Below, piece after piece: positions 49,841 to 62,818 of a DNA stretch of 64,000 bases. The notes beneath the pieces were generated by a model. The model saw only the letters and a program-made list of their open reading frames with translations, was not told the DNA's origin and did no database searches. Source of the stretch: Rhodospirillales bacterium (GTDB taxonomy: Bacteria; Pseudomonadota; Alphaproteobacteria; ATCC43930; CGMCC-115725). The DNA is taken from contig JAQGIC010000002.1 in NCBI GenBank assembly GCA_028288725.1, forward strand, positions 62,001-126,000. Direction: 5' to 3'. Each line of letters starts with the position of its first letter. Position 1 is the stretch's first letter. The position numbers were made by a program, and so were the translations under genes.

Positions 49841-51073
49841 TCACAGATCCTCCGCGCTGAACAGCTGCGGCTGGACCGATCCGTCCCGATAGACCGTGTC
49901 GAGCACGGCGTCGCCGATCGGCTCGGTACCGTCCCAGCGCTCGGGCCAGGTCTTCGCCGTGATCAGTTCGCGGATCCGCGCTTCTTCCTCAGAGTTGAGC
50001 ATATCGACCAACGGCCGGCCGAGGCGGATCGCAGCCTCGTTGCAGGCGCCCTGGATGGCGAGGATGTGATCGAGCGCGTCGAGGCGTGCGGCGAACGTCA
50101 GCGGGCCCATCCGCTGCGGGTTCTTTGAGAAGCCGCCTCCCTTAAGCGCCTCGCGTCCCGGCTTGCGCAGGCGGTTCGCCGGTTCGCGCAGATGGCGATA
50201 TATCGGGCGGATGCCCTTCAGCGGCGCGAGGTAGGCCCAATCGGGCTGAGCCACGATCGCGTCGAGCGCATTGTCCTTTTGCGCCAGAGGGCAGCCGACG
50301 CACCCGGTCCTGGCGTTGATCTCCTCGGCCTCATCGCCGCCATAGGCCGCCGCGATCGTCCGGGTCGCCCACCCGCCATACTGCGCGTTCGGGGCGTAGA
50401 AATTCAGCCAGTCCCAGACGTGGCAGACCCGCCAGTGCAGGATCGGCGCCAGCGTCGCTAGCCGGCCGCGCAGCCCGGTCGCCTCGGGCAGCACCTTCTG
50501 ATACCAACCCTGCCCGCACTCGGCACCGTCCTTGCCGCAGGACATTTCGATCCGGCGGTCGCGGACCGCGCTCTCGCCCTGCCGGACGCCAGTGATCATC
50601 AGGATCTGGCCGTCGATCCCGTCAAGCTCGTGCTCAAGTGCCGCCTGCATCGGGTCGATCTTGATCTGCCGAGTGCACCAGCGAAGCGTGTTGTTGTTCG
50701 GCGGCGGCACGCCACGGCCGAGAATGTAGACCAGGAACCGCTTGTCCATTGGCGCGCGCACCACATGGACAGCGATGCCCATGGTGCGCAGCTTGGCTAG
50801 GATCAGGTCGGCGGCTATGGCGAGCGGCAGTAGCTCCATGCGCGTGTCGGCATAGAACACGGAGAGCGTCTTCGGCTTGGCCACCCGACCGGTCTCGATC
50901 AGCCACATGATCAGCGTCAGGGTCGCTGAGCTGTCCTTGCCGCCGCTATAGGCGATGCCCCAGTGCTCGTGCGTCGGGCCGTAGGCCTGCAGCGACTGGA
51001 CGGTGAGCTCGATCGCTTCCTCTAGCACGAGGCGCCGATCGTTCTCAAACAGATGGTGCTGGGCGGCGATCAT
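49841..51073 (-). CDS. PAPS-reductase/DndC-like ATP pyrophosphatase
   Basis: 410 residues. P-loop SGGKDS (43-48), LRWCTRQIKIDP (Cys133), TGVRQGESAVRDRR and RTGCVGCPLAQKD (Cys258, Cys261) place it in the adenine nucleotide alpha-hydrolase group that includes DndC, which activates sulfur for DNA phosphorothioation. The Cys residues could hold an Fe-S cluster. No dndA/B/D/E partners are visible, so substrate and pathway are open. Coupled by ATGA to the next gene. Confidence 0.8.
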   Translation of the reverse strand: MIAAQHHLFENDRRLVLEEAIELTVQSLQAYGPTHEHWGIAYSGGKDSSATLTLIMWLIETGRVAKPKTLSVFYADTRMELLPLAIAADLILAKLRTMGIAVHVVRAPMDKRFLVYILGRGVPPPNNNTLRWCTRQIKIDPMQAALEHELDGIDGQILMITGVRQGESAVRDRRIEMSCGKDGAECGQGWYQKVLPEATGLRGRLATLAPILHWRVCHVWDWLNFYAPNAQYGGWATRTIAAAYGGDEAEEINARTGCVGCPLAQKDNALDAIVAQPDWAYLAPLKGIRPIYRHLREPANRLRKPGREALKGGGFSKNPQRMGPLTFAARLDALDHILAIQGACNEAAIRLGRPLVDMLNSEEEARIRELITAKTWPERWDGTEPIGDAVLDTVYRDGSVQPQLFSAEDL

Positions 51074-51978: not shown

Positions 51979-54900
51979 CTATGCCGCCTCCCGCATCGCC
52001 GGCGCCTTCGGCTTGTGCTGGATCCTGCCCGCGAGAGTGTGGACCGCGTTGCACTCAGCCATCAGCTTCGCCATCCGGGCCGGGACGCTATTGCCAACAA
52101 GGCGCATGGCCTCGGTCTTTGTGAGCGGCCGCTTGATCATCATCGGCTTGCCGTCGGGGAAGCTGACGACGTTGCCCTTGTGATCCCGCTTCCTGACCTC
52201 GATCTCTGCCGGGAGCACCAGCTCGTGCGCCGCGGCGGCTTCGAGCGGGGTCAGCATCCGCATGCCGATGTCGATCACGATGTAGCTGCCGACAACTACA
52301 TATTCGCCGCCGTTCCAGACGCCATGCCCGCGCAGGAATTCGGCAACCTGTCTGGCCCGGGCCAGCTGAGCGTCGGTCAGCGGCGGGAAGCTGAGATCGG
52401 CACCCGTGAGCCCGAAGCGGTCGTTGGTCGAAAGCGTGTCGAGCGCTACGTCGGCCCGCTGGCCCTGCCCTTCGACGCCATAGTATTTTCCGAGGTACGC
52501 CGCGGTCGGTCCGACATGGCCGCCGCCCTTGCCGCCGCCCGTCATCTGGGTCGGGAGCGCGTTGCCGACGTCCACGGCTGTGCCGGTGCCGTACAGGTGC
52601 GTGATGTAGGCCGCGCCCAATGCGACCGGGCCGACCTTCGTCACGATCGAGGCGACGGTGTCCTCGCAGGAGTGACCGGGCTCCAGATAGTTGTTCTGGA
52701 GCATCCAGGTCGCGGCTGGCACTAGGTCGGCGCCGATGATCCCAAGCGGTATGCTACCGCCCGGCCGCCCGCCCGCTTCCTGGAAGCCGTTCGCCGTGAT
52801 GGTCGGCGTAGGATTCCGCATGTCCTGGCCGACATGGCCGCCGCGGAACTCGGTGATGTGCGCGGCGATGATCGCGTGCTTCAGGCCGCCGGCCATCTGG
52901 GTGCCGATCGAGGCGCTGATGTCGAGCACGCGCGGATCCTGGCCCTCCCGCTCGCCGTAGCCGGTCTGGACCATCAGCATCGCGGCCAAGCCGAACTCGT
53001 TGCTGCCGGTCTGGGTACCGAGCGGATCCTTGACCTCGGAGCCGCGGAAGAACTCGTACTTGTGGTTCGGCTTGATGATGACTGGCGCGAGCGTTGCGGC
53101 AGCGACGCCAATCTGGGTGTCCGTGGTAACCACGGCGAGCGGTTCAGCCGCCGGCCGGCCAGGTCTCGCCGCTTCCTCGCCGCTCTTGCGCGGATCACCG
53201 TTATGCTGCGCGAGCCATGCGGCAGCGACCGCGAAACCCTCGCTCGTGGTCTGTGTCCGAAGCGCCTCGTCGACCGACCAGCTGTAGGAACTGCGGCCGG
53301 TCGATCCAGTGTTCGCGACACCGACAAGTGTCGCCGCCATCACGCCGAAGCGGTTCTCGGTGGTGCTGGTCGGAAGCGAACCAGCCACGTCGGCTACGCG
53401 CTCTTCTCCGGGCCGGCGCTCGCCGTGATACCGGATCAGCGACCCAGCAACGAGCGCATATTCCCCCGGAATCGACGCGGTGAACGGCAGCCCCGACCCC
53501 AGGAAGCCGCGATCCTCGCCACCCGTCGCCTCGACGTCGATGCGGTAGAGTTGAGCCGCCACCAGGCCATGGTGATCGGTACCGGTCTGCGTCGCGGCAG
53601 GATCGCCGACATCGTGCCCGATGCTGCGGCTTCGGAACTCGGTCAGGTGTGCTGCGATGACGCCGAACCGTGCTGCGCCAGCCATGATCGTGTCGATCGA
53701 GGCATGCATCTCCTGACCGATGCTGTTCTCGTTGAACTTGATCAGGTTCGCAGCAACGAGGCCGTGATGCGGAAACGCCGTCTGGCTGCCGAGCGCCTGG
53801 TCGACGGGCTGGCCGATGCTGGCACCGCGGTGCTCGACCAGACTGGCCGCGAACAGGGCGCGGTCCTCCTTCGTCGTGCTGGTATTGAGCGCACCGGCCG
53901 GGTCCATCGGACCCATCTGAGCCGCGCGCCCACCCGCGCCGACGATGCCGGGCACAATCACCGCACTCCGGGCCAAGGCGGCGCTCATGACGGCGAACTC
54001 TCCACCTTTCACGCCCGCGGTCAGCACCGGCAGCGATCCAGCCGCATCGTGGACACGGTAGGCGTCGCTGCTGTGTGTGGTCGGTACGATGACCGGGCTG
54101 CACAGCGACATCTCGCCCCGGTGCGCGCCGGTGAAGGTGGGCGCGGCCTGTCCGACCGGATGGGTCTGGCGCACACCATGATGCGTCAGGTGAACCAGGA
54201 ACGGCTCATTCGTTTCCAGCACGAACCGCTTCATGCCGACGGCGATGCGCTTCTGGGTGTTCGCGACCAGCGGCCGCGGCCGGTCGAAGATCGACGGCAT
54301 CGCGCGGGACCAGTCGATGATGCTCGCCGCCGGCGCCTCGGCCTGGTATTTGCCGGCCAGCACGGCCGCGCTCTTGCGATGGCCATGGGTGACCGCAGGA
54401 AAGGCGATCGGCACGCTGGTGAACACCATGCAGCCGAACAGCCGCTTCCGGCCGGTCGGGACGCCATGCTGGCTGCACGTCAGATCCTTGTCCTCGTAGG
54501 TGCCGCTCAGGCTGGCCAGGTGCTTCTCGAAAGCGCGGAACGTCTTGCCCAGCCGCTTAGGGTCTCTCACCAGAGACTGCTGGCGCAGCGGCACCTGCTC
54601 ACCCTTGGCGGCCACAACCTCGATGTAGCCCTTGGCCTTGCCCGTTTTCGGGTTGAGCTTCGGCACCAGCTTGAAGATGCGGCCCGTGGCCTTGTCGCGT
54701 TTGGCAACCAGCGGGCCCCACTGCCGGATCTCCCGAACGTTCTCCAGGTAGACGACGTTCGGGCCACGACCGCGCTTTCGGAGCACGCCCACCCAGCGGC
54801 AGACCTGCCAGGGCATCGAGCGGACCCGGGCACTGCGCGGCGCGCCACCCTTGGCAATCGAATGGTCGCGGCAATCCGGACTCGCCCAAAGGATATTGAC

Positions 54901-55242
54901 GCCACGCCCGAAGGTGGCGACCAGCGGGCAGACCTCGTAGATGTCCTTCTGGATGTGGTGGGTGAAGGGGTTCAGCGCCTTGTGCGCGGCGATCGCGATT
55001 TCGTCGTGATTCACGGCGACGTGCACCGGATACCCGGCCTGCTCTAGGCCGCGACACGCCCCTCCGATTCCGGCGAAGAGCACGACATTTATCAGGGCCT
55101 CGAGCGGCCACTGTTCCGGGTTGTCGGTCCGAGGCGTGGCGCGACGGCGAACACGGCGCCCGACCGGCCGGCGGCGCCGGGATTGCGGCGCGTGATCGAC
55201 CTGCAGCTCGGGCAGGAATGAAGGCTGGAAGGGCGCGCTCAT
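51979..55242 (-). CDS. C5 cytosine DNA methyltransferase with greatly expanded repeat region
   Basis: 1087 residues, about two to three times the usual length. Motif I VVLFAGIGG (53-61), motif IV ASPDCRDHS with catalytic Cys124 (PDC replaces the usual PCQ, as in some phage enzymes), motif VI YLENV (166-169), SQHGVPTGRKRLF (257-269) and motif X EAMRLVGNSVP (1044-1054). Between the last two, residues 350-950 are about 16 degenerate repeats of 33-44 residues ending GLVAA.L. The start overlaps the upstream stop as ATGA. Likely modifies phage DNA; specificity unknown. Confidence 0.88.
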   Translation of the reverse strand: MSAPFQPSFLPELQVDHAPQSRRRRPVGRRVRRRATPRTDNPEQWPLEALINVVLFAGIGGACRGLEQAGYPVHVAVNHDEIAIAAHKALNPFTHHIQKDIYEVCPLVATFGRGVNILWASPDCRDHSIAKGGAPRSARVRSMPWQVCRWVGVLRKRGRGPNVVYLENVREIRQWGPLVAKRDKATGRIFKLVPKLNPKTGKAKGYIEVVAAKGEQVPLRQQSLVRDPKRLGKTFRAFEKHLASLSGTYEDKDLTCSQHGVPTGRKRLFGCMVFTSVPIAFPAVTHGHRKSAAVLAGKYQAEAPAASIIDWSRAMPSIFDRPRPLVANTQKRIAVGMKRFVLETNEPFLVHLTHHGVRQTHPVGQAAPTFTGAHRGEMSLCSPVIVPTTHSSDAYRVHDAAGSLPVLTAGVKGGEFAVMSAALARSAVIVPGIVGAGGRAAQMGPMDPAGALNTSTTKEDRALFAASLVEHRGASIGQPVDQALGSQTAFPHHGLVAANLIKFNENSIGQEMHASIDTIMAGAARFGVIAAHLTEFRSRSIGHDVGDPAATQTGTDHHGLVAAQLYRIDVEATGGEDRGFLGSGLPFTASIPGEYALVAGSLIRYHGERRPGEERVADVAGSLPTSTTENRFGVMAATLVGVANTGSTGRSSYSWSVDEALRTQTTSEGFAVAAAWLAQHNGDPRKSGEEAARPGRPAAEPLAVVTTDTQIGVAAATLAPVIIKPNHKYEFFRGSEVKDPLGTQTGSNEFGLAAMLMVQTGYGEREGQDPRVLDISASIGTQMAGGLKHAIIAAHITEFRGGHVGQDMRNPTPTITANGFQEAGGRPGGSIPLGIIGADLVPAATWMLQNNYLEPGHSCEDTVASIVTKVGPVALGAAYITHLYGTGTAVDVGNALPTQMTGGGKGGGHVGPTAAYLGKYYGVEGQGQRADVALDTLSTNDRFGLTGADLSFPPLTDAQLARARQVAEFLRGHGVWNGGEYVVVGSYIVIDIGMRMLTPLEAAAAHELVLPAEIEVRKRDHKGNVVSFPDGKPMMIKRPLTKTEAMRLVGNSVPARMAKLMAECNAVHTLAGRIQHKPKAPAMREAA
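52393..54195 (-). repeat. About 16 degenerate protein repeats in the methyltransferase
   Basis: Units of the type HLTEF...SIG..V.DP..TQT....HGLVAA.L, for example residues 468-500, 501-532, 533-565, 603-640, 720-757 and 918-950. Copies differ widely in sequence, so the array is old or fast-evolving rather than a recent DNA duplication. Confidence 0.8.
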
Positions 55243-55535
55243 GCTGCTGCGCGTTCCGCGATCAGGCCAACCGTCGATCCGCCGCGCTTCCGAGCCTCAT
55301 GGGCGAAGTGGATGGCGAGCGCGGACAGTCCGAGCGGCGCGATTCCGTATTTGCCGTCGACGCCCTGCTCGACCAACCCCTTGCGGACGAGGGCGTCTTT
55401 GATGTGGTCGAGAGCCGGGTAATATTCCCACCGAACCGAACGGGCAAACATGTGGGCCAACATCTTGGCTTGCGCGTCGGTCAATGGCGGCACGAAGCCC
55501 TCGATCGGCTCGACCTGGGAAACGTGCGAACTCAT
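55239..55535 (-). CDS. Hypothetical protein, possibly winged-helix
   Basis: 98 residues: VPPLTDAQAKMLAHMF, then HIKDALVRKGLVEQGVDGKYGIAPLGLSALAIHF, a helix-helix-wing arrangement. Sits between two methyltransferase genes with ATGA overlaps at both ends; may be a local regulator or specificity partner. Confidence 0.6.
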   Translation of the reverse strand: MSSHVSQVEPIEGFVPPLTDAQAKMLAHMFARSVRWEYYPALDHIKDALVRKGLVEQGVDGKYGIAPLGLSALAIHFAHEARKRGGSTVGLIAERAAA

Positions 55536-58147
55536 GCGGCGACCTCATCCAGAAGGTCGAAGAGCGACGGCACCGAGATCTCGCGAGCCATGGCTTCGAC
55601 GTAGGCTACGCCGTCCAGGAAATAGCCGGGGTTCAGTTCGACGCCGGCGCCGCGGCGGCCGAGCTTCAGCGCGCGATACGGCACGGTCATCAACCCGCCG
55701 AACGGATCGAACACGAGCTCGTCGCGCTGAGAGTGTTGCTGGATCAGCCGGTCGACCACGTCGAACTGCAGCGGGCACAGGTGCATCTCCTGGCCCTTCG
55801 CCGATTGCTGACCATTGAGCGTCAGCATCCGGGTGATATCGGTCCAGATGTCCGGGTCGCGGCTGTGGGGCGGGAGCAGCATGAAGGTGGGCGGCAGCGC
55901 GCCGCGCACCTCGAGGCTTTCACCAATCCGGACGTGGTGCTCGAAGTCGTAGATCTGATCGAGCGCGTGCTGCTTCCAGAGCCTGTAGACTTGGTCAGCT
56001 GGAAGGCCGATCAGGTCCTCGGGTGCGAGAAGACGGTCACCGCTCGACCGCGCCACCCCGTTTGCGTCCAGCTGCCAGCGTGCTCTGGAATAGCCCTCGG
56101 GGTTCTGCCAGGCGCCCTTGCCGTCGTTCGCTTCCGGATCCCATTTTTTCTTGTCCTTCACCACTGGCACATCGGCGTAGCCATTGCTGCTGTCGGACGG
56201 CGGCTTGCGGAACAGCAGGACGTATTCCGGCATGCCGGCGCCCATCCGGCTGCCATCTTTGCACTGCTCCGTCCAACCGAGCCGATAGGTCTGGTTGTTC
56301 TCGCGCACGACGTCGGTGCCGACGGTCTTCCTGGCCAGGAACGCGAAGCCGTGGCGCCGGAAATGCGCGACGGTCTCATCGCTGAACGGCTGCACGGTCT
56401 GGAAGCCGAGCCCGGTCAGTCCACCCGGCACGATCCGATCCTTGACATGGATCGCGGCCACCCTGCCCGGCTTCAAGATTCGCAGCAACTCAACCGTCAG
56501 GAAATCCAACTGGCGGAAGAAATGACCGTTGTCGTCCGTGTGGCCGAAATCGAGATAACTGGGCGTGTATTCGTACTGGGTGGAGAACGGAATCGACGTG
56601 ACGATCAAGTCGACGCTGTTCTCGCCCATGCGGCGCGTCTCGGCCACGCAGTCGTTGTTCACGCAGCTGTAGCGCTCACCGACGACCTCGATCCGCTCAA
56701 CGCCCATCGAGCGCGCCAATTCGGCGGCCATGCCCGTCCGGGCCAGGCCGTACTCTCTGATGATCTCGGTCATTTTCGCTACGAGTTCCTTGTGCCGCTG
56801 CCACTTGCCTTCCAGGCGCCGGCGGACCTCGCGCTCGGCCGTCGTGTAGATCAGGTCGATGCGCACGGCATGCGTCTGGCCGAACCGCTGCAGGCGGTGA
56901 ATGGACTGGAAGAAGTCGTTGAACTTGAAGCCGATGCCGAGATAGACGGCCCACCAGCAGAAGCGCTGCAGGTTGGTGCCGGACCCGGCGATGACGGGCT
57001 TCGTGGCAAGCTCCTGGAACTTGCCGTTCGAGAAATCTAGGATCCGATCCTCGCGCTCGTCGAAGTCCTGGCTGCCCCAGACCGTCTTGCAGGACGGGAT
57101 GGCATGCTCGATCGCAACGCGCTCGCGCTCCAGGTCGTGCCAGATGATCCGATGGGCGTCCGGGGCCTCGGCCCTGATCTCCAGCAGCTTGCCGATGCGA
57201 CCCGGCAGGCTGTCGCGCTTCTCGCGGGACGCGTCGATCAGGCTGAGCGCGGCGTTCTTGAACAGCCGGCCCTGGCCGTCCCGTTCGGCGCCGGCGTTGC
57301 TGTGGTCCGCGGCGATCTCATGCCAGTGGATTTCGAGCGGCGGCAGGTCGTAGCCGGCGTCGCTGTAGCCGAGGTCTGACGGCTTCTGGACGAAGAGGCC
57401 CCAGCTGGCCACCCACAGCCAGAACTCGCGCTCTTTGTGGGGATGGACGGTGAGCTGGTCGGCCTTATCGCTGTCGCGCTTAAAAAACCGCGTTTTGGCT
57501 TGCCCGACGTCCATGATCTCGAGGAATGCGGCATAGGCCAGCAGCTCGATGTATTCATTGGGAGACGGCGTGGCCGTGGCGACGAACTTGAAGGGGATGC
57601 CGGCGAACAGGCGCATGAACTCGCGGAAGGTCTTGGTTCCGCCGAAGCCGCGCAGCACCGAGGCCTCATCCAGGCTGGCGGCGCAGAATTCGCGCGGGTC
57701 GAGCTTGCCGTCGCGGACCGTCTCATAGTTCGCGATGTAGACGCCGGTCGGTCCGCACTCCTGGATCGAGCGGACGAACTTTGGTGCTTCAGCCCACCCG
57801 AGCCGTTCGACCGCGTCGCGGAAGAATTCCTGGCGCACGCCGAGCGGTGCCACGATCAGGCCGCGACCGCCGAGGTGCTCGGATGCGATCCGGACCGCCT
57901 CCAGTTGCGTGACGGTCTTGTGCAGTCCGAAGCTGGCAAACAGCGCGCGCCGGCCGCCCTTCAGCAGCCACGCGACGATGGCGCGGCTGAATTCCTTCAG
58001 AGCCTTGTTGATGCGCTCCGGATCGACCTCGAAGCCATAATCGACCGCGACACAGACCTTCGCTTCGATGAAGGCGCGATAGGCGTCGACGCCGGTGTCA
58101 AGCACCGCCGGAACCGCAGCGGCTGCCACGGGCGCGGCCCATCTCAT
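55532..58147 (-). CDS. SF2 helicase-DNA methyltransferase fusion
   Basis: 871 residues from ATG 58147. Helicase part: FGLHKT (73-78, normally GLGKT), SLDEAS (158-163), ATATPSPNEY (190-199) and HRLQRFGQTHAVRIDLIYT (417-435). Methyltransferase part: TSIPFSTQYEYTPSY (517-531, a motif IV variant of the N4/N6 amino-methyltransferases), HVKDRIVPGG, and VFDPFGG (about 812-818, motif I). This fusion recurs in phages. It may translocate to or remodel DNA before modification. Upstream frame to 58606 is antisense to the next gene and rejected. Confidence 0.88.
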   Translation of the reverse strand: MRWAAPVAAAAVPAVLDTGVDAYRAFIEAKVCVAVDYGFEVDPERINKALKEFSRAIVAWLLKGGRRALFASFGLHKTVTQLEAVRIASEHLGGRGLIVAPLGVRQEFFRDAVERLGWAEAPKFVRSIQECGPTGVYIANYETVRDGKLDPREFCAASLDEASVLRGFGGTKTFREFMRLFAGIPFKFVATATPSPNEYIELLAYAAFLEIMDVGQAKTRFFKRDSDKADQLTVHPHKEREFWLWVASWGLFVQKPSDLGYSDAGYDLPPLEIHWHEIAADHSNAGAERDGQGRLFKNAALSLIDASREKRDSLPGRIGKLLEIRAEAPDAHRIIWHDLERERVAIEHAIPSCKTVWGSQDFDEREDRILDFSNGKFQELATKPVIAGSGTNLQRFCWWAVYLGIGFKFNDFFQSIHRLQRFGQTHAVRIDLIYTTAEREVRRRLEGKWQRHKELVAKMTEIIREYGLARTGMAAELARSMGVERIEVVGERYSCVNNDCVAETRRMGENSVDLIVTSIPFSTQYEYTPSYLDFGHTDDNGHFFRQLDFLTVELLRILKPGRVAAIHVKDRIVPGGLTGLGFQTVQPFSDETVAHFRRHGFAFLARKTVGTDVVRENNQTYRLGWTEQCKDGSRMGAGMPEYVLLFRKPPSDSSNGYADVPVVKDKKKWDPEANDGKGAWQNPEGYSRARWQLDANGVARSSGDRLLAPEDLIGLPADQVYRLWKQHALDQIYDFEHHVRIGESLEVRGALPPTFMLLPPHSRDPDIWTDITRMLTLNGQQSAKGQEMHLCPLQFDVVDRLIQQHSQRDELVFDPFGGLMTVPYRALKLGRRGAGVELNPGYFLDGVAYVEAMAREISVPSLFDLLDEVAA

Positions 58148-58311
58148 GACCGCGTCCCGGTGATGCCGCCCTCGCCGCGACCGGCGCCCGATGCGTACTG
58201 GGAGAAGCCGACTTCGCTCTCCAAGAACGAACGGTAGCCGTCCGTCACCGGCTGGTCGCCGGTCCAGGGCTCGCCACCCAGGCCGCGAAGGGCTGCTGAG
58301 GCGGCGCTCAT
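58144..58311 (-). CDS. Short coupled protein (55 residues)
   Basis: MSAASAALRGLGGEPW...EVGFSQYASGAGRGEGGITGTRS. It fills exactly the space between the Ntn hydrolase and the helicase-methyltransferase, with ATGA overlaps at both ends, so it is almost certainly translated. Gly-rich, family unknown. Confidence 0.6.
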   Translation of the reverse strand: MSAASAALRGLGGEPWTGDQPVTDGYRSFLESEVGFSQYASGAGRGEGGITGTRS

Positions 58312-58865
58312 TGGCGCACCTGCGCAACTTCATCAAGCGTTTCGATATGGAATGGGCCACGAACGCCGGCAGAGAAGCGTTCGGCGGCAGCCAGCGCACG
58401 GCGAACGCGAACGTCTGGTGCTCTTCCATCGGTCTCGGCCAGCGAGCCGAGCGCATAGGCCTCGCCGCAACCGACCGCGCTGAAGCCATCCGTCCGCTCG
58501 CCGACCTGGAAGTCGCTCTCGATCTGGAAAAGGCGCCCCCGAAAGCCAACGAGGAAGCAGCCTCCCTCCTCGACGTTATTCTCCTTCTTCGAATAGCCGC
58601 CAGCACTCAGTACGGTGCGGACCTCATCGACGAAGGGGCCGACCATGTATCGCCACAGGTCATCGTCTGGATGATGGCGCGGCGGGGTCAGCTTGACGGC
58701 AAGCAACTGGCCCATCCGGAACGAACTGGTAAAGCCCATGATCAGAGAGCCGTTGCGGAAGACCTTGCGGTCCGCGCGGATCTGCATGTCGTAGCCACCG
58801 ACGCCGGCACTATCGCCGCCGATGACGACACTGCCCTTGTGGACGATCCCGACGATGCAGGTCAT
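58308..58865 (-). CDS. Proteasome-beta/HslV-like Ntn hydrolase
   Basis: 185 residues from ATG 58865. After Met removal the N-terminus is Thr1 (TCIVGIVHKG), with Asp17 in GGDSAG and Lys33 in DRKVF, exactly the catalytic positions of proteasome beta subunits and HslV. The rest (GSLIMGFTSSFRMGQLL, GGCFLVGFRGRLFQIESDFQ) follows the same fold pattern. No ATPase partner is seen in the window. Role unknown; possible peptidase acting on host or phage proteins. Confidence 0.75.
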   Translation of the reverse strand: MTCIVGIVHKGSVVIGGDSAGVGGYDMQIRADRKVFRNGSLIMGFTSSFRMGQLLAVKLTPPRHHPDDDLWRYMVGPFVDEVRTVLSAGGYSKKENNVEEGGCFLVGFRGRLFQIESDFQVGERTDGFSAVGCGEAYALGSLAETDGRAPDVRVRRALAAAERFSAGVRGPFHIETLDEVAQVRQ

Positions 58866-60026: not shown

Positions 60027-60265
60027 GACGACGCTCCATCGGCCAGGTCGCCGCCGGGCGGCAGGTCGTGATCGGCGATCGGATCGAGCTCTTCCAGCAG
60101 ATCCGCCACGGTCAGTTCATCCTCGACCGCCCGCAGGAATGCGACCAGACGATGGCGGAAGCGCGAGATCGCGCCGTCGCTCGGTGTCGGCTTCTCAGCG
60201 GGGTCGTTGCCGCGCCCGGCACTGGCGCCGGTGAAGACTGCATCGTCTATGTCGGTGGCGCGCAT
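60023..60265 (-). CDS. Small acidic hypothetical protein
   Basis: 80 residues, acidic C-terminus (ADLLEELDPIADHDLPPG) and a basic helix in the middle (FRHRLVAFLRAVEDEL). Coupled on both sides. Not recognised. Confidence 0.55.
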   Translation of the reverse strand: MRATDIDDAVFTGASAGRGNDPAEKPTPSDGAISRFRHRLVAFLRAVEDELTVADLLEELDPIADHDLPPGGDLADGASS

Positions 60266-61095
60266 CAGCGGCTGCCCATCAGGCGCTTGGGATCGAGCCC
60301 GGCCACGACATTCGGCCGGTGATCGGCGGCCCGGGCCATCTTCGCGACGATGTCGCGCACGGCCGCCGTCGAGAATGTGCCGCCGCCGGCGGATGCGACG
60401 GGTTCGCGCCGATCGAGGAAGCGTTGGATGTTGTCTACCGGCACCTGCTCGTCGAGCGCGATCCAGGCCGCGCGGAACAGGGCCGCCGAGATGCCGCCGG
60501 GTTGCGCGGCGTAGGCCTTACCGACCATGACGACCGCCCGCGTGCCGTTGCGATCGCCGCACGCCTTGACGATGGTGCCGATCGCCAACGTCTGGCCGGC
60601 GCCCAGTCTCTCCTTGGGGATCGGATAGCGCGGAATCTCGATGCCCGCCCGCAGGCAGAGCTCGTTCGTCTCGACCGCGACCGGATCGGCGGCCGCAAGG
60701 CGCGCGTGATGGATCGCATAGGCGTTGACCCGAACCCGCTTCTCGTTCGTGTCGAGGAAGATCGATGCCTGCTCCTCGACCGACATCGGCGGCATCACGA
60801 CACAAGGCACCATCTTGATGCCCTTCAGCCGAGCCGCCTCGACCCGATGCTGGCCATCGATGATCATCCAGATCCCGTCGTTGGCCTCGACCACCATCGC
60901 GACGCCGAACCGGTTCCATTTGAACTTCGCGGCGATGCGATGGATCGCGGCCTGGCTGATCCGGCCCTCGATCGTGCGCTGATACGTCGGGTCGACCTGC
61001 AGGCAGGCGACTGGCAGCCACGCAAGCTCCGGCCGCGGGCCCGGATCGAAGATCAGTTCCGGGGGGGGCGTTGCTGAGGAGGAGGCGCGGACCAT
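60265..61095 (-). CDS. ParB/Srx-like protein (DUF6551-like)
   Basis: 276 residues. VDPTYQR, WMIIDGQHRVEAARLKG, VPCVVMPPMSVEEQASIFLDTNEKR is the ParB N-terminal catalytic/CTP-binding-like pattern with IDGQHR in place of GERR. C-terminus helical. In phages this family is of unknown function; nuclease or DNA-binding roles are proposed. Confidence 0.8.
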   Translation of the reverse strand: MVRASSSATPPPELIFDPGPRPELAWLPVACLQVDPTYQRTIEGRISQAAIHRIAAKFKWNRFGVAMVVEANDGIWMIIDGQHRVEAARLKGIKMVPCVVMPPMSVEEQASIFLDTNEKRVRVNAYAIHHARLAAADPVAVETNELCLRAGIEIPRYPIPKERLGAGQTLAIGTIVKACGDRNGTRAVVMVGKAYAAQPGGISAALFRAAWIALDEQVPVDNIQRFLDRREPVASAGGGTFSTAAVRDIVAKMARAADHRPNVVAGLDPKRLMGSR

Positions 61096-61097
61096 GA

Positions 61098-61832
61098 TCA
61101 GGCACCCCGCTCGGCGCTGCTCGGCGACGATGCTTGACCCAATTGCCCGTTCGCGGAGCGCGCCGAGAGGGCGGCTGTCAGCGCGACCGCATCCGCCGCC
61201 GCCAAACCATCCGCATAGGAGGCATCGTGGTCGCGGCTCGGCCGCGCCCTCAATGGCGACGTCTTCAGGCCGGCGTCGGCCATAGCCGCGTCGATCAGCG
61301 ACCGATGCAGCACGATGAGGCCGGTGCCCATCGGCGCCGGCGGCTTCAGCTTGATGATGCGGGTCCGCAGCCGATCGGCCATGCCGTCCAGAAACGGCAA
61401 GATCTTTCGGCGCCGCGCCGGCGGCATGAGCAATGCGTAGGCGCCGTTCAGGCGCTTGAACTCGCGGCGCATAGCCCCCGCGCAGACCTCGAGCAGATAG
61501 GTCGCGATCTCGACCTCATGCGCGAAACCGAAAAAGCTGATCTCGACCGGCCATGCGCCGGCGCACGAGGTCCAATATCTCGCGCCGGTCAGGACGGAGA
61601 CGCCTTGGGCCACCTTCCAGAGCCGATCTCCGACCTCGTCAGTGTGGCGCTCGGCATGACGGCCGAACGGTGAGGCGCGAAGTTCTGCCTCGTCGATCGT
61701 CATGTTGTGGAGCGCCAGGATCTCCGCCAGCTTCTCGGCGGCGGCCAAGGCCTCTTCCTCCGTACAGCCGTTCGCGACCGTCTTGGCACGAAGCGCGCGG
61801 AGGCGTGCGGCGATCTTCTCGCGCCCGGTCAT
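61098..61832 (-). CDS. DUF2786/DUF7168 family protein
   Basis: 244 residues. N-terminal [41 protein letters not shown] is DUF2786; [21 protein letters not shown] and the [12 protein letters not shown] region match DUF7168. Frequently next to phage early genes, function unknown. ATGA overlap with the GapR-like gene. Confidence 0.8.
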
Positions 61833-62818
61833 CGCGTGACGCTCGCGTGGTGCTGCTCTTCAGCCTGGCCCCATCCGTAGCGCCAGTAGGCCAGTGTCGC
61901 GGGTGCGGCCGCGGCGGGCTCGCCCTGGAAAAGTGATTTCAGCGGACCCCATGCGGCCAAGCCGGCCCGGCGTGCGGCTTCGAGATCCTCATCCGACACG
62001 TAGGCGCCGGTATGCGCTTCGTCGTTACCATCGGTCCAGCGCTTGCTCGGCGATGAGCGAGGGCCCGCGCTCGACCGGCTGATTCCGGTCGCAATCTCTG
62101 CCGACCGTTCATCGCTTTCGCGCGAGATCTCGCCGCCGTCGGCAGGGGCGCCGCTGTTGGTTGCCGCGGCGCCGTCGGGCGCGCTGGCGGCTTGCCAAGG
62201 GCGGGCGCTCCGGCTGGTTATGATGGCGGCGGCTCGCACGTGGCGATGGCCCAGATTGTCCGCCTCGCTGACGACGCCGTCGGCGCATAGCTGTTCGATG
62301 AGGGCGGTCGCCTTCTTCCTGTCGACCTTCAGCCGCTTTTCGATCTGAGACGGCGCAACCTTGCCCGTCGCCAGCACCAAGGCGCGCGCGGCGGCGAGCA
62401 GGTCTTCCTCGCTGACGTCCTGGCGCTGTGCCGCGGCCACAGCGGTCTCGGCATCGGTCGCCCGCAACATGACGGTGCCGGACGAGAGCGGCGCAGCCTC
62501 TCGGCGCTTCGAGGCGGGCGTGGTGAGCGACGGCGCGGCTTCATCGCCATCCACGTCGGGCAGCATGCCGAGCGCCCGCATATAGACCTCGAGCATCGTC
62601 TCTTCTTCGTCGAGCTCGTTGCGGTCGCGCTTCCGGATCGAGATGATCTTGCGGATGATCTTGGTGTCGAAGCCGTTGCCCTTGGCTTCGGCGAACACAT
62701 CCTTGATGTCCTCGGCCAGCGCCTTCTTCTCTTCTTCAAGCCGCTCAATGCGATCGATGATCGCGCGCAGCTGCGCCCCGGCGATGCCGTCGACGGTGGG
62801 CGGCTGACTGTCGCTCAT
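61829..62818 (-). CDS. GapR (DUF2312) - FtsK-gamma winged helix fusion with RMF-like C-terminus
   Basis: 329 residues. Residues 10-85 ([48 protein letters not shown]) are a complete GapR/DUF2312 domain, known in Caulobacter to track overtwisted DNA. Residues 136-195 ([53 protein letters not shown]) align closely with the FtsK gamma winged helix, which reads KOPS. Residues 275-320 ([29 protein letters not shown]) resemble the RMF/CrpP-like tail. Linkers are Ser/Ala-rich. I know of no described protein with this combination. Confidence 0.8.

Follow-up and report, generated by a model that had tools for sequence, protein, structure and literature searches.

The window analysed here is a stretch of 64,000 nucleotides from a Rhodospirillales bacterium (assembly GCA_028288725.1, contig JAQGIC010000002.1, positions 62,001 to 126,000), within which we focus on a gene for a C5 cytosine methyltransferase that carries an array of 16 degenerate repeat units on a single catalytic core. 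Its open reading frame runs on the minus strand from 55242 to 51979, starts with ATG and encodes 1087 residues with no internal stops (Table 1). The gene is single-copy in its own genome and belongs to a prophage that also encodes terminase, portal, head, tape-measure and tail proteins. An antisense open frame (52834-55047, plus strand, 737 residues) overlaps most of it and is probably a shadow frame produced by codon usage high in guanine and cytosine.

Pfam recognizes only the N-terminal C5 methylase part of the protein (PF00145, E = 2.5e-9, 37.5 bits with a cut-off of 22; a second, sub-threshold match was disregarded), and the PHROGs profile phrog_116, ‘DNA methyltransferase’, matches residues 46-1077 (E = 2.3e-53), spanning the catalytic and C-terminal parts. 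The motifs FAGIGG, SPDC, ENV, GRKR, RMLTP and GNSV of a PF00145 enzyme are all found in sequence order, and we take them to be motif I (residues 56-61), motif IV with the catalytic cysteine (121-124), motif VI (167-169), the motif VIII region (264-267), motif IX (995-999) and motif X (1050-1053), respectively. These catalytic motifs are intact, and they are conserved across the family alignments.

Between motifs VIII and IX of this one core lie 16 consecutive recognition-type units of 26-44 residues each, cut by hand across residues 361-950. A preliminary description, made from the letters of the DNA alone, had counted about 16 degenerate units between motifs VIII and X; the count is borne out and so is the position after motif VIII, but the array ends before motif IX rather than X. 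When residues 331-960 are compared with themselves without gaps, 354 windows of 22 residues reach a BLOSUM62 score of at least 25; in 30 shuffles the number of such windows averages 15.1 and never exceeds 49, and the best window scores 66 compared to 40 in the shuffles. A unit profile seeded on the 16 hand-cut units finds all 16 of them, which is circular, and the same profile re-estimated on the family finds 12-15, depending on round and threshold. Repetition at the DNA level is slight, the longest family measuring 39 nucleotides at 64-72% identity and the best short one 22 nucleotides at 91%, and such faint traces suggest that the array is not recent.

Table 1 Features of the methyltransferase gene, with positions in the window.
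Feature	Residues	Positions	Strand	Basis or remark
C5 cytosine methyltransferase gene, 1087 residues		51979..55242	-	ATG-initiated open frame; PF00145; phrog_116
Catalytic domain	46-346	54205..55107	-	Conserved columns, family alignments; predicted local distance difference test (pLDDT) mostly >85 except about 121-140
Unit 1	361-386	54085..54162	-	Hand-cut
Unit 2	387-423	53974..54084	-	Hand-cut
Unit 3	434-468	53839..53943	-	Hand-cut
Unit 4	469-500	53743..53838	-	Hand-cut; clustering: subtype shared with unit 6
Unit 5	501-533	53644..53742	-	Hand-cut
Unit 6	534-565	53548..53643	-	Hand-cut; clustering: subtype shared with unit 4
Unit 7, most atypical	566-602	53437..53547	-	Hand-cut; absent from final re-estimated model’s matches
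Unit 8	603-639	53326..53436	-	Hand-cut
Unit 9	640-677	53212..53325	-	Hand-cut
Unit 10	678-718	53089..53211	-	Hand-cut
Unit 11	719-757	52972..53088	-	Hand-cut
Unit 12	758-796	52855..52971	-	Hand-cut; clustering: widespread subtype F
Unit 13	797-840	52723..52854	-	Hand-cut; clustering: widespread subtype B; sole window unit fitting P..T[ILV][TASV]
Unit 14, weak	848-880	52603..52701	-	Hand-cut; absent from final re-estimated model’s matches
Unit 15	881-917	52492..52602	-	Hand-cut
Unit 16	918-950	52393..52491	-	Hand-cut; clustering: subtype U
Region with motifs IX and X	951-1075	52018..52392	-	Invariant columns; confident in AlphaFold2 model

Arrays and their units across the family

Relatives were drawn from viral contigs, genome contigs, phage records and sampled genomes. 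Two of the searches contribute the best 80 of 579 and the best 80 of 573 confirmed relatives, and the census is therefore biased toward relatives of the window enzyme; the nearest one sampled shares about 70% identity with it in the catalytic domain. Dropped beforehand were 18 of 200 loci without a frame passing the motif filter, 3 identical ones, and 8 (L022, L023, L035-L039 and L119) that are truncated, belong to another family or are duplicates of one locus. All 171 distinct proteins of the census have arrays, of 3-16 units: one has 3 units, 7 have 4, 27 have 5, 33 have 6, 42 have 7, 47 have 8, 9 have 9, 3 have 10 and one has 11, and only the window enzyme has 16. The statement that phage C5 enzymes often carry one to three such units thus fails in this family, where the other 170 proteins have 3-11 with a median of 7; nor do relatives routinely reach the number seen in the window, as the maximum elsewhere is 11, although arrays as such are routine.

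The seed unit profile was made from the window enzyme and so favours it, but model-free checks of length concur. The span from motif IV to motif X measures 929 residues in the window enzyme compared to 702 in the next-longest, and in a further genome sample of the phylum (29 of 398 genomes matched, the window’s own among them) the open frame is 1105 residues long in the window compared to no more than 967 in the rest of the matched genomes. Most of the length variation in a 9-sequence family alignment falls in the array region. As all sampled relatives have arrays and none has a longer one, possession of an array is nothing unusual in this family, of which the window enzyme is the longest sampled member.

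Clustering by similarity divides the 1172 units into 44 subtypes at a cut of 0.66 (89 at 0.55, 64 at 0.60, 45 at 0.65 and 36 at 0.70), which combine into 132 architectures among the 171 enzymes. For 97% of the units, the best match in distant enzymes (less than 50% catalytic identity) scores higher than any in their own protein, with medians of 42.2 and 21.9 bits in a comparison that offers far more outside targets than own-protein ones; when set against a single random distant protein, the medians are 25.9 and 21.8 bits and the outside match is better in 71% of units. The last slot is occupied by subtype A in 162 proteins, by U in 7 and by B in two (L092 and L097); every protein contains a single last-type subtype, either A or U, and U is confined to the last slot in all 7 proteins that have it. 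It is rare for one protein to contain the same subtype twice (41 of 1172 units compared to 218 expected by permutation), which also holds after removal of the first and last units in all 171 proteins (34 of 830 compared to 100.5) and for the internal units of 82 representatives of less than 80% identity (14 of 383 compared to 38.7, with a minimum of 26 in 500 position-matched permutations). For 14 pairs of single-copy subtypes, each of the two possible orders is found at least 3 times, D preceding C in 32 proteins, for example, and C preceding D in 27.

Judged by their sequences, the units are distinct modules and mostly not recent tandem copies. The expansion by local duplication that had been proposed for the window enzyme is not supported, as only units 4 and 6 share a subtype; recent tandem duplication was rejected as the origin of the array, except perhaps for these two, because the units match distant enzymes better. 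Fifteen of the window units find their best census match elsewhere at 34 to 62 bits, and unit 7, which matches nothing in the census well, reaches 19.6 bits.

Between some near-identical relatives, single units have been replaced or lost. There are 50 pairs with catalytic domains at least 95% identical, 14 of which, not mutually independent, differ at one slot only, 12 of these by subtype. Same-slot identity in those of the pairs that have equal unit numbers is bimodal, with 171 of 256 comparisons at 90% or above and 43 of 256 below 60%. In the protein alignments of 7 pairs, from which the edges were judged, the differences fall mostly inside single units and start or end within a few residues of the unit borders; the pair L132/L135 differs further over a brief stretch of unit 2, and L066/L146 in two adjacent units. 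Slot 3 holds an allelic series, as the near-identical enzymes L182, L197, L173, L189 and L103, the last from a Pseudomonas genome, bear subtype M, F or J, and L188 is without two whole units that are present in L096, their catalytic domains being 99.6% identical. Units thus appear, from these natural single-unit replacements and losses, to move as cassettes among the relatives.

Likeness to recognition domains and known enzymes

According to one account, the TL motif lies near the C-terminal end of the recognition domains of C5 methyltransferases and contacts DNA, recognition trimers flank it on both sides, and Trautner et al. defined the domains of multispecific enzymes by means of it (PMC2413257). 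The core of the units, P-x-x-T-x-T, resembles this motif, with conservation of 95% for P, 94% for the first T, 72% for the second T and 89% for a final L. For the most part, the columns that define the subtypes are found ahead of P..T, between P and T, and 2-6 residues past the second T; with subtypes defined by similarity, only the positions of these columns are informative. The pattern P..T[ILV][TASV] occurs in 801 of the 1172 units, compared to a mean of 19.8 in shuffled arrays and none in the catalytic domains.

Tandem recognition domains are described for multispecific enzymes of Bacillus phages (PMC8936443). Like the window enzyme, MtbP of SPbeta/phi3T and the SPR enzyme combine one core with tandem TL-type motifs between motifs VIII and IX, and their last motif, FTVNTIDRHGVA, is similar to the family’s last unit, T[IV]TTKDRFGLV; they differ from it in having 2-3 motifs rather than 16 units, and the profile similarity is weak. 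The SPR methyltransferase reportedly has a triple specificity, to go by the title of a paper. Matches to T[ILV][TNS] in the recognition region number 2 in SPbeta MtbP and 3 each in SPR, SPbetaL3 and MMB025, the counts for MtbP and SPR excluding motif X matches and one at MtbP 245. The weak matches of the unit profile on SPR and MtbP fall at the TL motif, and none of 500 shuffled versions of the MtbP region reaches 3 bits. SPBc2 was absent among the tblastn records listed (60 of 301).

Closer relatives found by tblastn, which have the same unit type and half the unit number of the window enzyme or fewer, are Pyei1_p05, Sinorhizobium phi2LM21_p23 and Aeromonas ARM81mr_p29 (8, 6 and 5 profile matches). 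Relaxed 5-methylcytosine (m5C) specificity is described for the Paracoccus enzymes JCM7686_0772 and JCM7686_2655, which protect many sites partially instead of a small number cleanly (PMC3925955); the Aeromonas ARM81 enzymes are likewise called relaxed (PMC5537653), and the same is assumed for Pyei1_p05, which is about 69% identical to the Paracoccus JCM7686 enzymes (PMC6536676). The passages of the published accounts that deal with these phrog_116 relatives do not mention repeats, and a literature search over titles and abstract openings of open-licence papers returned no description of the repeat array, of its variation in the family or of cassette differences. What is already known is the tandem-domain principle in Bacillus phages and the relaxed specificity of phrog_116 relatives.

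With the AlphaFold2 model of L093, a relative with 5 units, foldseek gives C5 methyltransferases among the 50 matches listed of 1338, the cores of HaeIII (E = 1.6e-10) and HhaI (E = 1.2e-9) resembling that of the model; alignments of more than 550 columns were set aside, with root-mean-square deviations of 13.6-24.8. HhaI and HaeIII are monospecific and have a single recognition domain and no array. In profile searches of the PDB, the listed alignments (4 and 5) and the best stretches cover the catalytic motifs and motifs IX-X and leave the units uncovered.

Several neighbouring genes, all on the minus strand, were observed in passing. The one at 49841-51073, near the methyltransferase, encodes a protein like phosphoadenosine phosphosulfate (PAPS) reductase (phrog_12882, E = 1e-219); the methyltransferase relative of Rhizobium phage RR1-A (L013) likewise has next to it a gene annotated as phosphoadenosine phosphosulfate reductase, and a frame of L001 looks similar by eye to the PAPS-reductase-like protein. 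At 55532-58606, adjoining the C5 methyltransferase, lies the gene for a protein of 1024 residues with helicase-type and N4/N6 DNA methylase regions. The same region encodes a ParB-like/DUF6551 protein (60265-61095), and at 61829-62818 a protein of 329 residues, odd-looking for a prophage, in which a GapR-like DNA-binding domain is fused to an FtsK gamma domain.

Interpretation of the array

We consider it probable that the window enzyme is a prophage-encoded multispecific C5 methyltransferase whose units are interchangeable recognition cassettes, and that it extends the type known from Bacillus phages. In such an enzyme, 16 recognition cassettes of 26-44 residues would follow one catalytic core, with the P-x-x-T-x-T centre of each as the equivalent of the TL motif and its flanking residues reading a short DNA target. 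The cassettes may alternate in offering different targets to the single active site, so that the enzyme would methylate cytosines in many contexts and the phage DNA would thereby be shielded from many restriction enzymes. We infer that the units of the window array recognize DNA and that one cassette reads one target of its own. The multiple specificities suggested in the preliminary description find indirect backing in the TL-like core, the mostly non-redundant subtypes, and the cassette swapping and relaxed specificity seen in relatives; several cassettes on one core would account for the latter in a simple way.

A number of observations weigh against this interpretation. The window units themselves are far from typical, as P..T[ILV][TASV] fits one of the 16 and 8 of the 16 have Q or S, and no hydrophobic residue, at the place of the ‘L’ of the TL motif; the literal published TL consensus matches none of the 1172 units of the family. 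The link to the Bacillus-phage enzymes is faint, with profile matches of 5.0 bits on MtbP (E = 0.014) and 2.4 bits on SPR (E = 0.09), no match at E ≤ 1 on the other three of the five controls (SPbetaL3, MMB025 and SpP), and in SpP no TL-type motif outside motif X. The deficit of repeated subtypes loses significance among 17 representatives at 60% identity (3 repeats compared to 8.0, minimum 1) and among 4 at 50% identity (1 compared to 2.8, minimum 0). Two of the 14 single-slot differences stay inside one subtype, and the sampled relatives give no sign of a recent swap in the window enzyme. In addition, phi2LM21_p23 is described as inactive in Escherichia coli, where the DNA stayed sensitive to every enzyme tried (PMC5537653). 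The AlphaFold2 models of the window enzyme (58 rows) and of L093 (70 rows) have a confident core and an array with pLDDT mostly below 50, and therefore give no support either way for a solenoid.

Alternatively, the array could be one composite DNA-binding scaffold, a solenoid or a flexible tether, that lowers the overall specificity of the enzyme with units that have no targets of their own. The partial protection of many sites described for relatives (PMC3925955) and the degenerate TL cores of most window units would fit such a scaffold, but it would predict similar copies, and the units instead fall into many subtypes that are rarely repeated in a protein and are exchanged singly, with the residues that define them flanking the TL-like core, where the recognition residues of known enzymes lie; we therefore regard it as unlikely. 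An anti-restriction decoy, in which the array would act as a DNA mimic or bind restriction enzymes, had also been put forward, and nothing beyond the prophage setting speaks for it. DNA mimics are expected to be strongly acidic, and the near-neutral array (isoelectric point 5.76, with 55 acidic and 40 basic among 590 residues; family median 6.46) is therefore evidence against a mimic; the catalytic motifs are also conserved, and we hold a decoy to be highly improbable.

A weaker form of the cassette reading, whose odds overlap with those of the full one, is that some cassettes are functional and several are decaying relics, which would bring the number of specificities well below 16. Units 7 and 14, which the final re-estimated model does not match, and the low census score of unit 7 point that way, but no stop interrupts the frame, and the best matches of the remaining 15 units to other census proteins lie well above that score; this form is possible, if somewhat doubtful. 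Beyond the window, the interchangeable cassettes may amount to a phage-borne combinatorial DNA code, in which about 44 subtypes of about 35 residues would each read a short word of their own, be lined up in varying number and order behind one C5 methyltransferase core and pass between phages singly, a proposal that we put forward tentatively and that falls not far short of an even chance.

If the units are indeed recognition cassettes, the window enzyme, with 15 different ones, would rank with the broadest multispecific methyltransferases. Methylation specificities could then be composed from the cassettes, which would constitute a large natural set of DNA-reading modules. The single-cassette differences between near-identical natural enzymes make the idea of one target per cassette directly testable. 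For a widespread family of phage m5C methyltransferases, the array offers a possible mechanism of the ‘relaxed specificity’, and temperate phages may, if this is true, match diverse restriction systems through the trading of modules.

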